Positions 7,013 through 16,130 of a DNA stretch of 64,000 nucleotides are shown here, one piece after another. The DNA comes from an uncultured Synechococcales cyanobacterium (GTDB lineage Bacteria; Cyanobacteriota; Cyanobacteriia; Thermosynechococcales; Thermosynechococcaceae), in NCBI GenBank assembly GCA_902806435.1, contig CADCWO010000001.1:62001-126000 (forward strand), read 5' to 3'. How positions within the stretch are numbered: position 1 is the first letter of the stretch; each line of letters begins with the position of its first letter. The notes beneath the pieces are model-generated. The model was not told the DNA's origin, ran no database searches, and was given only the letters and a program-made list of their open reading frames with translations. Made by a program: the position numbers and the translations under genes.

Positions 7013-8050
7013 TTACCGTTGACGCGTCCGCCGCCAAATCTCCCAACCCGCATAGCTCATCAGCAAGCTGGCACCCAAGGCATAGGCACCGCCACCGGGC
7101 ATTCCAGAAAATGCCATCGCCAAGCTACCCACCCACAGCGTCAGAGCGTAGATAAACAAGACAATTGTTCGCTGGGAAAGCCCTGCTTGTAGCAAACGGT
7201 GGTGCAGATGCCGCTTATCCGCCGCAAAAGGCGACTTGCCTCGGCGCAGCCGGTCTAGTACCACCGCTGAGGTGTCAACAATCGGGACCGCCAAAATCAA
7301 ATAAGGGAGCAGCACCGCAGCCGTGGTTACACTTTTTACCAGGCCAATCACCCCAATCCCGGCTAGGGTAAATCCCATAAAATAAGCACCGCCATCCCCC
7401 ATAAAGATCTGGGCAGGATTAAAGTTATAGCGTAGGAACCCTAGGGCACCGCCAGCTAGGGCAGCAGCAACTAGTGCCGCAGCAGGTTGATCCATAAACA
7501 GGCTAACCACCAACATGACGACAGCGGCAATCCCGGAAACTCCTGCTGCTAAACCATCTAGACCATCAATAAAATTAATGGCATTGGCCATACCGACTAG
7601 CCAAGTCACGGTGACCGGTAAACTTAACCAGCCTAGATTAACGAGTCCGACAAAAGGAATAGTAAAAAACTCGATAGCTACGCCCACCTGCCAAGCCAGC
7701 GTGGCGATAACCACCTGCAAGAATAACCGTACAAAGGGCGATAACGTAAACAAATCATCGGCCAACCCGATCAAGAAGAAGGCTAACCCCCCCACAGTGA
7801 CGCCCCAAATACCATATTCCTCCGCGGGAGGTAATTCCCCAAAACCCCCAGAGACCCAGACGGTGAGTAATGCTACTAAAGCACCAGCAAAGATAGAGAT
7901 ACCGCCTAGGCGGACCATTGGTCTCTGGTGAACTTTACGGGGATTGGGTAAGTCTACATAGCCAGTCTGTAACCCAATTTTTTTGACAATTGGTGTGGTC
8001 CACAGAACAATAACGGCAGCCACCAAGAAGGCAACCAGATGGTAGGGCAT
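7013..8050 (-). CDS. Undecaprenyl-phosphate GlcNAc-1-phosphate transferase (MraY/WecA family)
   Basis: A polytopic membrane enzyme of 345 residues that most likely transfers a sugar-1-phosphate from a UDP-sugar to undecaprenyl phosphate, the first step of a surface polysaccharide (WecA/TagO type). The evidence is about ten hydrophobic segments plus the family motifs: GLADDL, NAINFIDGLDGLAAG, the Asp-containing FMGDGGAYFMGF, and a late cytoplasmic loop RRGKSPFAADKRHLHHRLL, which carries the His-rich motif seen in WecA rather than MraY. MraY itself is a different, longer-loop relative, so peptidoglycan synthesis is less likely. The start is ATG at 8050; glyA lies 63 bp upstream on the same strand. 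Confidence 0.93.
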   Translation of the reverse strand: MPYHLVAFLVAAVIVLWTTPIVKKIGLQTGYVDLPNPRKVHQRPMVRLGGISIFAGALVALLTVWVSGGFGELPPAEEYGIWGVTVGGLAFFLIGLADDLFTLSPFVRLFLQVVIATLAWQVGVAIEFFTIPFVGLVNLGWLSLPVTVTWLVGMANAINFIDGLDGLAAGVSGIAAVVMLVVSLFMDQPAAALVAAALAGGALGFLRYNFNPAQIFMGDGGAYFMGFTLAGIGVIGLVKSVTTAAVLLPYLILAVPIVDTSAVVLDRLRRGKSPFAADKRHLHHRLLQAGLSQRTIVLFIYALTLWVGSLAMAFSGMPGGGAYALGASLLMSYAGWEIWRRTRQR

Positions 8051-8113: not shown

Positions 8114-9397
8114 TTAAGCCAGGACGGGTACAGGAGTCGTTAGATGAGCATACAGGGGAAAGCGATCGCACAAATTAGCAACCCGCTGGCGACAGTCTTG
8201 AGCAATCAGCTCATCCTCAGGATGCAGTAGTCGATCTGCAATGATATTAGCAATCTCTGTGAATTCGGCAACTCCCATGCCACGAGTCGTCATGGCTGGA
8301 CTACCTAATCGGAGGCCACTGGTCACAAAAGGCGACTCAGAATCAAAGGGTACGGTGTTTTTATTCGCGGTGATGTTGACGCCACTCACCAGTTGATCCG
8401 CCCGCTTACCAGTCATGCCAATGCAGCGCAAATCCACCAGCAATAAGTGATTATCCGTGCCGCCCGAAACAATCTTGAATTGCTGCTGTTGCAGTTGGGT
8501 TGCTAAGGCTTGAGCGTTAGCAATTACCTGGGCCGCATAGGTTTTGAACTGTGGCTGGAGGGCTTCCCCAAAGGCGACTGCTTTCGCGGCAACCACATGC
8601 TCTAGAGGTCCACCTTGAGAACCGGGAAAAACAGCTTTGTCTAACTGCTTGCCCAGTTCGGCATCCCGAGTCAGAATCAAACCGCCCCTAGGACCACGTA
8701 GGGTTTTATGGGTGGTGGTAGTAACCACATCACAGTGGGGAATGGGGCTGGGGTGATGGCCAGTTGCAACCAGCCCAGCAATATGGGCCATATCTGCCAG
8801 CAGGTAGGCACCGACTTCATCAGCGATCGCCCGAAATTGGACAAAGTCAATCGTTCGCGGATAGGCAGAGTAGCCACAAATAATCAGCTTCGGGCGATGT
8901 TGACGTGCCACTTCCTGGATCTGGTCGTAGTCTAATCGCTCTGTTTCCTGGTTAACACCATACTGCACTACCTTGAACCACTTTCCTGACACATTCACCG
9001 GCGAACCGTGGGTAAGGTGTCCCCCATGGGACAAATCCATGCCCATAATGGTGTCTCCCGGCTGTAAAAGGCTGAGGAAAACGGCAAAGTTTGCCTGAGC
9101 CCCAGAATGGGGTTGCACATTGGCATGGGCAGCGCCAAATAACTGCTTTGCCCGCTCAATTGCCAGTTGCTCAACGGCATCGATAAACTCACAACCACCG
9201 TAATAACGTTTGCCTGGCAGGCCTTCAGCATACTTGTTGGTTAACACAGAACCCTGCGCTGCTAGCACTGCCGCGGAGGTAAAGTTTTCACTCGCAATTA
9301 ATTCCAGGTGATCCTGCTGGCGTTGCAGCTCCTGTTGCAAGAACCCAGCAACAACGGGATCTGTGTTAGCGAGAATATCTGAGTTGGTGGGAGTCAC
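8114..9397 (-). CDS. glyA: Serine hydroxymethyltransferase
   Basis: A PLP enzyme interconverting serine and glycine with tetrahydrofolate, the main source of one-carbon units; cytoplasmic. At 427 residues it has the usual size. Motifs: [11 protein letters not shown] near residue 35, [32 protein letters not shown], and the PLP-lysine motif [13 protein letters not shown] near residue 230. The start is GTG at 9397. I see no clear riboswitch in the 240 bp upstream. Confidence 0.98.
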
Positions 9398-12372: not shown

Positions 12373-12501
12373 CAGCCTTCGAAGAATTTTTCTTCTAGTT
12401 TATTCAAGCTGAAGAGATTTATTTTGGCCTCCTCTCGTCTTTGCTGGCCTAGCACGAGATCGCCAGCTGGAGCATTCAAGAGCTGTCCTCACTAACAGCC
12501 A

Positions 12502-13572
12502 CTAGCATTGCCTCACTAAGTGAGCGAGTACGGAATTAAGCCATTTTGTTTGGCGGTTAGCAAGCCTTCGCTCAACTTGAGCTAACGCGATCACTCCCGA
12601 CCCACAAATCCGGTCAATTTGAAAGGGAGCTGTCTGACCAAAACTGCCTTTCGGTGCGGCATAGTGGATTTCAATGCGCAGATGCGGACCAGTGCTCCAA
12701 CCGGAGTTGCCACTATAGCTAATCAGTTGACCTGCCTGAACGCGATCGCCTAGCTTAATGCCAATTCTAGCTTGGAATCCCTGCTCCAAATGCAAGTAGG
12801 CAGAGCGGTACTCATTCGTATGTTCAATCAACACATAATTAAATTTGTGAAGATTTTCTTCCCCGCCGCCGGTATCAGGAAACCTATCTTCTAGGTTAAG
12901 AACCTTACCAGAACGCATGGCGTAGACAGGCATACCAATATCAACCGAAAGATCAAAAGCATACTCCATCGGGCCCAGATGAGAATAGGACCCATGCGGC
13001 CCTTGGGAAATTATGCCAGCTTCCCTTAAGGGATGGCATAATCCGACCAGTGGGGCAGCTTCTGTGGGATTCGATTGAAGTGCCACCTCAGAAATAATAC
13101 CACCAGAGCCCCGCTCAGGGTTAAGCAGAGCAACAGCATTTGCTACCACAAAACCTTGTCTATCTTTTGTTTCAACTTCATACCACTGGTGCTGGCGGTC
13201 ACTAGAAACCGCAAGTTTACGATGAATTTTTAATGTTGTCCCAGTATACCAATCAGCAATCGCTCTAGCATTACTAAATGGTGCTGATTTGAGTTCTAGC
13301 CGTGAGGTTTGCGATCGCCAGTTAACCGAGCCAATCTAAGTGGATTTGTGAGATTTTTTCTGCTCAAACCGTTTGACAGAGCCACTTTCAATATTCTTAA
13401 ACTTGTTAATCTTACCTTGCGATCAGCAAGCTTGATCTCTAGTTTTTAAGCGTTCGAAACTATATTTTACACCAACACAGCGAAAGCCTTTAGCAACTAT
13501 AGATTGAGCTGAACCTGCTGTTGAAATTAAGCTTAAAAATGCTGCATTCGATAGAAACTCTTGCCTAAACAT
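12502..13572 (-). pseudogene. Probable broken secreted SH3-M23 peptidase gene
   Basis: The frame from GTG 13149 to 12502 encodes an M23 (LytM-type) domain: SHLGPMEYAFD for the metal-binding start, a long GGGEENLHKFNYVLIEH segment, SAYLHLEQG and STGPHLRIEIH. The same frame continues upstream through a convincing bacterial SH3 domain (ADWYTGTTLKIHR, then WYEVETKDRQGFVVANAV) with no ATG, GTG or TTG, up to a TAG at 13336-13338. Further up, past a TGA at 13423-13425, the same frame contains an ATG at 13572 with a signal-peptide-like start (FLSLISTAGSAQS). The second His of the M23 HxH motif is Arg (HLR), removing a metal ligand. I infer a decayed secreted cell-wall peptidase. Alternatives: translation from GTG 13149 of the M23 part alone, or sequence errors. 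Confidence 0.7.
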
Positions 13573-14157
13573 GACAAACTCTTGTATAGTTCTGCATTAG
13601 TATTTATACGGAAGAAATACCCCGGTAGGGTAATATTCTTCCCCATGGCCTAGAAAGCCGTAAGACGATGCGGCTAGGTCAGATTTTCTATGCGAAAAAA
13701 GGGGGTTGTTAAAGATCAAAAATAGCCATAATAAGCAAGAGCAGAATCAAGATTAAGCATCTAAGGCTAGCACTTCAAATTACAAATTAATTGCTTAGGT
13801 AAGCTACACCTAGCCTTCAACGGATTAGCATATGACGCCTTCAACCCAATTGATTGGCAAAGATGAACCTTGCTTTTAGCAACGTTCTGGCGTATATAGT
13901 GGCTTTTGCCATGAACGTAAGTGTGTGAGTGTGTGATCAGGTTTAGTAAGATTTTGCGCCGGGTTCCCAAATGCGGGAACAACCAATAAAGCATACCTGT
14001 CATTAGTCCTATTAATGGGAATAATGCAGGTTCCAGCAGTTTTTGCTGAAGAGAAATTCTTCTGTATTAGTGGCTGGACTTATCCTACTTCCCACTCAAT
14101 TAACACACGTTTTAAAACATCTCAAGGGGGGAAGAGTATTGAGCAGGAATTATAAAA
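13573..14157. other. Gene-poor region between the broken M23 gene and a PEP-CTERM gene
   Basis: About 585 bp, with no open frame that looks like a protein. It holds a possible structured element at 13651-13690: arms AGCCG/CGGCT around a 10-base loop, enclosed by TAGAA/TTCTA. A short inverted repeat GTTCCC/GGGAAC lies at 13963-13980. Both could be RNA hairpins; neither matches a family I know. The last 25 bases hold a GCAGGA before the next ATG. Confidence 0.4.
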
Positions 14158-15186
14158 ATGCGAAACAAAGATTTATCTTATCGGACTGGAGTGCCGATTT
14201 TGGTTGGTGCTATCGTAGGCGCAATCGTCACTAGCGGAGCTTACCTGATTACTGCTCCCTTAGCCCAAGCAGCAACCCTTTTCAGTAATGATGGTGTCCA
14301 GTTTGATGAAGATACTACCCTTGAATTTAATTTCAAGGAATCTCACGGTGTCTATAAGTCCACTTTTGGCGTGATTGACTTAAATACAAAAGAAAGGTTT
14401 CCGCTGATTAAAGAGACAAAATCTTCTGATGTATTCCAGCCTGTAACACGCCCCTCTGATCGCAAACGCAACATCGGGGATAAGAATGACTTCTTAGGGA
14501 CACCAGGTAATGCTGTGCCAAACCCGACAGCTAAGTTCAACTTTAAAGCCAACACCAGATATTCTTTCTTTCTAGATTCGGCCTACGAAGAGCGACCTGT
14601 AGGCACAGCCTACTCCACAAATTTAATGAACCCTGGTGGAGTACAACAGGCTAAGTTCGACACCGACCCAGCTAATCTGTGTAACGGTGGTAGCACCATT
14701 GCCTGGGATGATACCGGAGCTGTTTTAGTCAAAACTCCAGAACAACAAGATACAGATTTTGATGACGTTTATATCGAAGCTACTAATGGTGTTTGTGCAG
14801 TAGGTGGTGGCGCAGCTCCAGCAGCAGTCGGTGGCGGTATGCCGCCAGTAGTAGCTGGAGGTGGACCAGGATTTATTCCATACCTACCGCTAGCAGGTTT
14901 AGCTGCGCTTCCTTTTGTCTTGGGAGGTGAGGGAGATAATACATCAACTCCACTACCGCCAGTGTTAGATACAGTCACTCCCCCAGGAGCAGAAGGTACA
15001 CTAACTCCTTCAGGAGCAGAAGGTACACTAACTCTCCCAGGACCAGGAGGTACAGTAACTCTCCCAGGAGCAGAAGGTACAGTAGTTCAACCAAATGCTA
15101 AGGCAGTACCTGAACCCTCAACCACTATTGGGTCATTAGCCCTGATAGGTGGGTTTCTGCTGCGAAGAAAATTCAAAAAGATTTAA
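14158..15186 (+). CDS. Secreted PEP-CTERM protein
   Basis: A 342-residue exported protein of unknown function. The N-terminus is a signal peptide (hydrophobic residues about 11-35, APLAQA before the likely cleavage site). The C-terminus is a PEP-CTERM sorting tail: VPEPSTTIG, a hydrophobic helix, then RRKFKKI. In the family this tail is recognised by an exosortase/archaeosortase-type enzyme; none is encoded in the window. Between lie a beta-rich region, a Gly/Pro/Ala-rich stretch with an extra hydrophobic segment (about 240-262), and four 9-residue repeats of the PGAEGTLT type (14983-15090). The ATG has GCAGGA upstream. It is likely a surface or matrix component; the ligand is unknown. Confidence 0.85.
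   Translation: MRNKDLSYRTGVPILVGAIVGAIVTSGAYLITAPLAQAATLFSNDGVQFDEDTTLEFNFKESHGVYKSTFGVIDLNTKERFPLIKETKSSDVFQPVTRPSDRKRNIGDKNDFLGTPGNAVPNPTAKFNFKANTRYSFFLDSAYEERPVGTAYSTNLMNPGGVQQAKFDTDPANLCNGGSTIAWDDTGAVLVKTPEQQDTDFDDVYIEATNGVCAVGGGAAPAAVGGGMPPVVAGGGPGFIPYLPLAGLAALPFVLGGEGDNTSTPLPPVLDTVTPPGAEGTLTPSGAEGTLTLPGPGGTVTLPGAEGTVVQPNAKAVPEPSTTIGSLALIGGFLLRRKFKKI
14983..15090 (+). repeat. Four tandem 27-bp coding repeats
   Basis: Four consecutive 27-bp units encode nine residues each: PGAEGTLTP, SGAEGTLTL, PGPGGTVTL, PGAEGTVVQ. They sit just before the PEP-CTERM tail and probably form a flexible spacer. Copy number could vary between strains by slippage without breaking the frame. Confidence 0.85.
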
Positions 15187-15329
15187 AGCCAATCAAACGT
15201 CGTGAGAGGTAGCGGACTTTACTCAACAAGGTGTTGATGATTGGCTACCAATCGTGATGACTTTGAACAATTGCTAACTATCGGGGGGCTATTAAAACAG
15301 GTGAAAAAAGTTTTGGAGTGGTATCTCAA

Positions 15330-15965
15330 ATGCATACACAAAAAATAGGTTTATTAACAGGCGCAATATTATTGCTGCTGGTTAGCTTATCTGCGCAACC
15401 GGCAATGGCTGACACGTCAGGTAGCCAACTAGAAAAGTCTACTAATCAGCGCAATACAAATCTTGGTCAAGCTTCAACAGGGACACAGCGCAACGTAACT
15501 GGAATTGTCAACTCATTCCAGGGAAGTACCTTGGACCTACGGCTGGCCGACGGCACCTGCAAGACATTTTCAGTTGAACCCAGTACCGTTGGCTCCCAGC
15601 ATCTACGCAAGGGGACACTTGTCACCTTTGACGCTGATGCTAATAGGCGTGTTACTAGAATCCAGCAGCCGGAAGTTGCTGAAACGATTAATGGGGTCGT
15701 TACCAAGATTGCTAATGATCAGGTAACACTGAGGCTTCCGAATGGACAAACTAGAACCACAGTAGTTGCACCAGCAACAGCACAGCAATTAAAGTTAGCC
15801 CCTGGCGTTCCGATCGCAACGACCTTATATCGCGGTACCTCACTCACAAAAATTTGTGTACGCGCCTTAGACATTCCACCCGTCGCAGCAGTACCTGTGC
15901 CCGTTGCCCAACCCCCTGTTCCACCCGCCTTTAAAGCTCCACAACCTGTAAGGGCTCTTTGGTAA
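15330..15965 (+). CDS. Secreted hypothetical protein with two beta-barrel-like repeats
   Basis: An exported protein of about 211 residues from ATG 15330, which has GGAG eleven bases upstream; a GTG at 15318 is in frame but sits on the Shine-Dalgarno. The signal peptide is clear (LLTGAILLLLVSLSAQPAMA). The mature part holds two similar segments, RNVTGIVNSFQGSTLDLRLADG and then INGVVTKIANDQVTLRLPNG, resembling DUF5666/OB-like strands, and ends in a Pro/Val-rich tail. It sits 130 bp after the PEP-CTERM gene and is followed by a strong terminator. The function is unknown; a periplasmic or extracellular role is inferred. Confidence 0.75.
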   Translation: MHTQKIGLLTGAILLLLVSLSAQPAMADTSGSQLEKSTNQRNTNLGQASTGTQRNVTGIVNSFQGSTLDLRLADGTCKTFSVEPSTVGSQHLRKGTLVTFDADANRRVTRIQQPEVAETINGVVTKIANDQVTLRLPNGQTRTTVVAPATAQQLKLAPGVPIATTLYRGTSLTKICVRALDIPPVAAVPVPVAQPPVPPAFKAPQPVRALW

Positions 15966-15995
15966 GCTAAGTAGCTGTAGCGAATTCTGGCACGT

Positions 15996-16032
15996 ACGAC
16001 CCTGATTAAGATCGGGGTCGTCTGGCTTTTTT
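15996..16032 (+). terminator. Rho-independent terminator
   Basis: An 11-bp stem (ACGACCCTGAT with ATCGGGGTCGT, one wobble), a TAAG loop, then CTGG and a run of six T. It ends the transcript of the secreted-protein gene at 15330-15965. Confidence 0.88.
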
Positions 16033-16130
16033 GTAGTTTATGAAGTCTTCCCCACTCTAGAAGACGCTAGTTACAAATTGATTTGCGCTAGCGTTAAATT
16101 AACCGACGCACTTATTTTGGCTACTTTACT

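Follow-up and report, generated by a model that had tools for sequence, protein, structure and literature searches.

The window, that is, the whole 64,000-nucleotide stretch of cyanobacterial DNA analysed here, carries on its minus strand a reading frame in which two stop codons precede an SH3-like domain and an M23 peptidase domain (Table 1). This arrangement of ATG, TGA, TAG, SH3 and M23 in one frame had been described in an earlier sequence-only reading and is confirmed by the sequence, the stop positions given there, 13423 and 13336, being the low ends of the TGA at 13425-13423 and of the TAG at 13338-13336. Beyond the second of these stops, 277 codons remain open up to the terminal TAG at 12504-12502, with no frameshift among them. 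The ORF listing of the locus holds a sole entry, the 215-aa frame that starts from the GTG at 13149.

Table 1. Coordinates of the disrupted frame, its domains and its surroundings (window positions).
Feature	Position	Strand	Basis or remark
Disrupted frame in full, from ATG to terminal TAG (357 codons, stops included)	12502..13572	-	sequence
ATG, presumed former start, followed by hydrophobic N-terminus	13570..13572	-	no homologue found
In-frame TGA, codon 50	13423..13425	-	sequence
In-frame TAG, codon 79	13336..13338	-	sequence
SH3-like domain of bacterial type, lacking its own start codon	13132..13308	-	custom profile E 8e-6; SH3_2, SH3_3 and spectrin SH3 matches
GTG-started open frame, 215 aa, as a gene caller would report it	12502..13149	-	ORF listing
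M23 peptidase domain, best Pfam stretch	12661..12963	-	PF01551, 62.9 bits, cut-off 28.7
Zinc-ligand His of H(x)nD, conserved	12979..12981	-	family alignment; ligand roles from PMC9662197
Zinc-ligand Asp of H(x)nD, conserved	12952..12954	-	family alignment
First His of HxH (water-activating), conserved	12682..12684	-	family alignment; PMC9662197
Arg codon in place of second HxH His (zinc ligand)	12676..12678	-	family alignment, distant M23 set
Stretch of 3758 bp between 188-aa gene and SLH gene, with disrupted gene and two others	12373..16130	.	synteny with G003
Presumed PEP-CTERM-like gene and adjoining secreted-looking 215-aa gene	14158-15186 and 15318-15965		family of 215-aa gene unassigned

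The surroundings of the disrupted gene are partly conserved. In the nearest syntenic relative (G003, locus L173) the gene order is the same as in the window, namely a FAA hydrolase, a gene which we take to be rpsF-like, the 188-aa gene, the SLH gene and an M42 peptidase. The interval that separates the 188-aa gene from the SLH gene measures 226 bp in this relative, against 3758 bp in the window, and the M23 gene and its two neighbours are absent from the locus. This difference may represent a gain in the window lineage or a loss in G003. The best match to the M23 frame in G003 has an E-value of 6.7e-7, and the absence of the gene elsewhere in that assembly, which is 74% complete, is weaker evidence. 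In none of four further relatives (G008, G006, G002 and G005) does the SLH gene adjoin the 188-aa gene, and no intact orthologue was found at the same locus in these four or in G003. With regard to the wider neighbourhood, gene order between window positions 7013 and 11643, around the presumed rpsF-like gene, is conserved with L173 at 54-91% protein identity. The G003 match to the window ORF at 8114-9397 is split into two pieces, perhaps through an assembly or frame break.

The two other genes of the 3758-bp stretch are one with an end that we presume to be PEP-CTERM-like, for which no Pfam match was found, and one of 215 aa. This pair recurs in G005, G019 and G021 (loci L190, L191 and L195). 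In G005 the 215-aa gene and the M23 gene both have homologues, which flank a PEP-CTERM-like gene, all on one strand, so that the three genes stand together at least there.

The M23 identity of the peptidase domain is certain as judged from its sequence. According to a review (PMC9662197), the zinc ligands of M23 enzymes are two His and one Asp of the H(x)nD and HxH motifs, and the first His of HxH is not among them. In the disrupted frame the H(x)nD ligands, H57 and D66 of the GTG-started frame, are aligned with those of the family, and the HxH position reads H-L-R (in ...GPHLRIEI...), with three of the four active-site residues kept. The loss of the second His, already claimed from the sequence, is upheld by the alignment of the close family (57 domain sequences, 40 of them distinct, aligned with the disrupted frame): all 40 other domains have His at this position, and Arg occurs in 1 of the 41, the disrupted frame alone. 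Furthermore, the 80 distinct sequences of a more distant M23 set comprise 78 with His, one with a gap, one in which the position is not covered and none with Arg.

This residue stands out in a domain with only mild changes overall. The wear of the domain was measured by leaving each sequence out in turn, with a divergent row (L123) and a row with a split frame (L048) dropped, which left 39 sequences. Of the 31 columns in which the others do not vary, the disrupted frame departs at 3, more than any other sequence (next, 2 of 30), and it departs at 10 of the 60 columns conserved at 90% (next, 9 of 60). At the columns conserved to at least 95%, two intact relatives depart more often than the disrupted frame (4 of 45 each against 3 of 42). 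When the two rows are kept, L123 departs at 4 of 25 invariant columns and the disrupted frame at 2 of 24. In the tree the disrupted copy groups with its paralogue at a support of 0.126, which is not firm, and its branch is no longer than that of the paralogue (0.75 and 1.00, respectively). In codon preference the M23 part, at 0.086 per codon, is on a par with the intact paralogue (0.079). These observations, a body that is not broadly worn and codon use like that of an intact gene, speak against decay; the mildness of the change means that decay, if such it is, is young. As separate observations on the subfamily, L123 (G191:C25) departs at four otherwise invariant columns and a frame change divides L048 in two, and on the example of these two the decay of such M23 genes may be common.

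The SH3 part is recognised less directly. It had been called a clear SH3 domain. In Pfam the matches of the fragment to SH3_2 (E 0.013) and SH3_3 (E 0.029) both fall under the cut-offs, and it was further compared with a custom profile for which four SH3 domains were taken from related cyanobacterial proteins. Among the 681 stop-to-stop window frames of at least 40 residues, the disrupted frame is the best match to this profile (E 8e-6), the runner-up having an E-value of 0.16. This part also matches spectrin SH3 chains (best E 0.0044). Folded alone, the fragment gives a poor model in which strands are visible (mean pLDDT 53.7) and which, like the model of the read-through translation, is not counted as evidence for SH3. 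The claim that the domain has no start codon of its own holds, since the frame offers no ATG, GTG or TTG from the TAG up to GTG 13149, and just ahead of or inside the domain its candidate starts are ATT codons and nothing else. GTG 13149, the only canonical start past the TAG, sits in the last part of the SH3 span and is thus not the start of a whole domain.

The position of this GTG bears on the possibility that the 215-aa frame is still a functioning gene, whose short, non-catalytic, LytM-like M23 product would bind peptidoglycan or a partner hydrolase in the manner of EnvC, NlpD or DipM, the SH3 part being a dead remnant. M23 proteins of this family generally work outside the cytoplasm, and a frame that begins inside an SH3 domain and shows no recognisable export signal after its GTG fits poorly with such a role. 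Moreover, with three of four active-site residues in place, the domain is one step away from an active enzyme rather than a member of an established degenerate lineage, and its Arg is found in no relative. A degenerate LytM regulator would be expected to be an intact, exported protein with a change conserved in its lineage. We regard a living gene of this kind as unlikely, even though 215 codons are intact with coding-like codon use and an AAGG lies a few bases 5' of the GTG. A model of the read-through translation is also in its favour: the mean pLDDT is 59.6 overall and the model is confident only for the M23 core, where the block means over residues 201-320 reach 76-95. Degenerate M23 domains with regulatory roles are, in addition, known (PMC9662197).

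Upstream of GTG 13149, the disrupted frame is depleted of stops, with 2 in the 141 codons over 13572-13150 against 8.4 expected (Markov resample, P 0.009, an after-the-fact test of a frame that had been picked in the sequence-only reading). The other five frames contain 5-20 stops each over the same interval. The depletion suggests that these 141 codons were once coding. The proposed signal-peptide-like start at 13572 fares less well. The upstream part of the frame is low in G+C (34-37%), and its codon preference, positive in the M23 part, is neutral there, and so speaks neither for nor against former coding in the first 79 codons. These 79 codons have no recognisable homologue in the genome itself or in the 97 genomes searched, and an acidic residue falls within the first five residues of the supposed signal peptide. 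The N-terminal 147 codons have one weak match in their own genome besides themselves (E 0.2), and their best match in the 97 genomes is the SH3 domain of a transglycosylase-type protein (G079, E 0.0025). Another six matches in those genomes (E 0.009-0.09) were set aside as they look like chance or like SH3 alone. The region upstream of the ATG has no second copy in the genome. It contains a strong inverted repeat (13603-13645, minus strand, some 30-75 bases 5' of ATG 13572), matched in folding by 1 of 200 shuffles (z -2.83), which is perhaps an operator or a terminator.

The low G+C, the neutral codon score, the acidic residue and the orphan first 79 codons would all suit a gene that was never built from ATG 13572, whose ancestor began elsewhere, either at a start, since lost, shortly ahead of the SH3 domain or with an older N-terminus that is now gone. 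The stops would then lie partly in non-coding DNA, and only a start and a catalytic residue would have been lost. Such a history is very improbable in our judgement, given the depletion of stops upstream of 13150, the choice of nothing but ATT codons just before or within the SH3 domain, and the oddity of an SH3-M23 protein without an export segment. A different old start changes the details and not the verdict of a broken gene.

A further possibility is that translation passes both stops and yields, on rare occasions, a full-length SH3-M23 protein, as might be imagined for a frame that runs on unshifted beyond them and in which two domains can still be recognised. Nevertheless, the genome contains no tRNA-Sec match to RF01852 over the Rfam cut-off, the six matches below it being four Ser, one Gly and one Tyr tRNAs, and the RNA at the two stops does not fold in any unusual way compared with shuffles (z 0.42 and -0.41). 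In addition, 44 long ORFs of the window, the disrupted frame included, end in TAA (18), TAG (17) or TGA (9), which indicates that all three stops are normally used in the window. The product would in any case still be devoid of one zinc ligand. Readthrough had been ranked as the less likely option, and the results make it barely credible.

With regard to related genes, the genome of the disrupted gene has seven M23 loci in all. Besides the disrupted gene these are an intact, unlinked paralogue on another contig (L002, G000:C186) and five others. The paralogue has 209 aa, the motif HLH and 56% identity to the disrupted frame, and its N-terminus is a short hydrophobic segment of its own. At E 1e-40 or better the M23 subfamily is found in 14 of the 29 genomes of the order, the own genome included, and at E 1e-25 in 19 of the 388 genomes of a class sample. 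The named records that contain matching sequences come from Acaryochloris, Thermosynechococcaceae and cyanobacteria of similar kind. Over the M23 domain, the paralogue and the Acaryochloris and Thermosynechococcaceae proteins (L006-L020 and L036-L047) are about 48-60% identical to the disrupted frame, and the nearest relatives reach 56-60% protein identity with saturated silent sites.

The search for an intact homologue advocated in the sequence-only reading found none at this locus and yielded only the paralogue and relatives of differing layout. No close orthologue with an intact SH3-M23 layout appeared in the 29 genomes of the order, a set that includes no second genome of the same genus and possibly leaves out very near records; the ancestral start is thus a guess. 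Intact homologues that lack SH3 and start where GTG 13149 does had been named as evidence that would overturn decay. Intact SH3-free proteins do exist, but they start elsewhere, the paralogue about 18 residues upstream of the GTG position, and most Acaryochloris-type relatives carry another N-terminus.

That N-terminus is an observation in its own right. In 9 of 10 relatives scanned, a c-di-GMP-binding MshE-like domain (NF053729, E 3.5e-15 to 4.9e-20), followed by a hydrophobic segment, precedes M23, and a separate scan shows such a domain in L018 as well; the M23 genes concerned, L018 included, are L006, L012, L015, L018, L036, L037, L040, L041, L042 and L195. These proteins may be cell-wall endopeptidases governed by c-di-GMP. 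A limited literature search found no paper joining MshEN, c-di-GMP, peptidoglycan and endopeptidase. This pairing is more interesting than the disrupted gene itself.

Taken together, the locus is best explained as a recently inactivated gene, or pseudogene, for an exported SH3-M23 peptidoglycan endopeptidase of the cyanobacterium, to which we assign a probability of about 0.8. Four lines of evidence make decay the best explanation and support the sequence-only reading on this point, namely the two in-frame stops ahead of a domain without its own start, the lost zinc ligand that is His in every relative aligned, the intact paralogue elsewhere in the genome, and the lack of a Sec recoding apparatus or special RNA structure at the stops. 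The frame is disrupted by these stops relative to intact homologues, a comparison made with homologues that do not share the same upstream region. Besides the limited wear of the M23 body, the long frameshift-free run, the failure to find a close orthologue of the same layout and the orphan first 79 codons count against decay. The term "recent" is inferred from the frameshift-free frame between the TAG and the end and from an M23 domain that is not broadly eroded.

Under decay, translation from ATG 13572, which would have been the old start, would halt after 49 codons, and neither the SH3 nor the M23 domain would be made. Initiation at GTG 13149 would yield an unexported M23 domain that, with one of its three zinc ligands gone, should not cut peptidoglycan. 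The ancestor would have been active and exported, and its loss would have been tolerated thanks to the other M23 genes. It is quite improbable that cells express the domain begun at the GTG, or a readthrough product at low level, and that this non-catalytic M23 protein with its Arg serves the intact paralogue as a decoy or regulator; if true, the moment at which a peptidase turns into a regulator would have been caught. A gene caller would list the GTG-started frame as an M23 peptidase, but the evidence says that it should not be counted as active.

Compared with known systems, the disrupted frame resembles the M23 (LytM/lysostaphin-type) endopeptidases of PF01551 in its domain, which scores above the family cut-off, in its H(x)nD motif and in the first His of HxH; the best matches of its M23 part in the PDB are lysostaphin chains. 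It differs from them in the Arg that replaces the second HxH His, in its two stops, and in an open frame without an export or membrane segment, from which the stops separate it. The paralogue, unlike the disrupted frame, retains HLH and has its short hydrophobic N-terminus without SH3, and HLH is likewise found in every one of the Acaryochloris and Thermosynechococcaceae relatives aligned. The nearest in layout is a protein of 386 aa (L018, from G083), in which SH3_3 (Pfam E 4e-8) directly precedes M23 and which is 51% identical from query residue 45 on; unlike the disrupted frame, it is intact, has HLH and begins with an additional MshE-like domain bearing a c-di-GMP motif. The degenerate LytM regulators EnvC, NlpD, DipM and Csd2 combine the M23 fold with an incomplete zinc site, as does the disrupted frame, and they are intact, exported and conserved (in part after PMC9662197). 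In contrast to these regulators, the change is here confined to a single gene, in which stops sever the parts for export and SH3 from the rest. The disrupted gene would be a further case of a redundant cell-wall hydrolase that has recently become a pseudogene, ordinary in kind and of little consequence.
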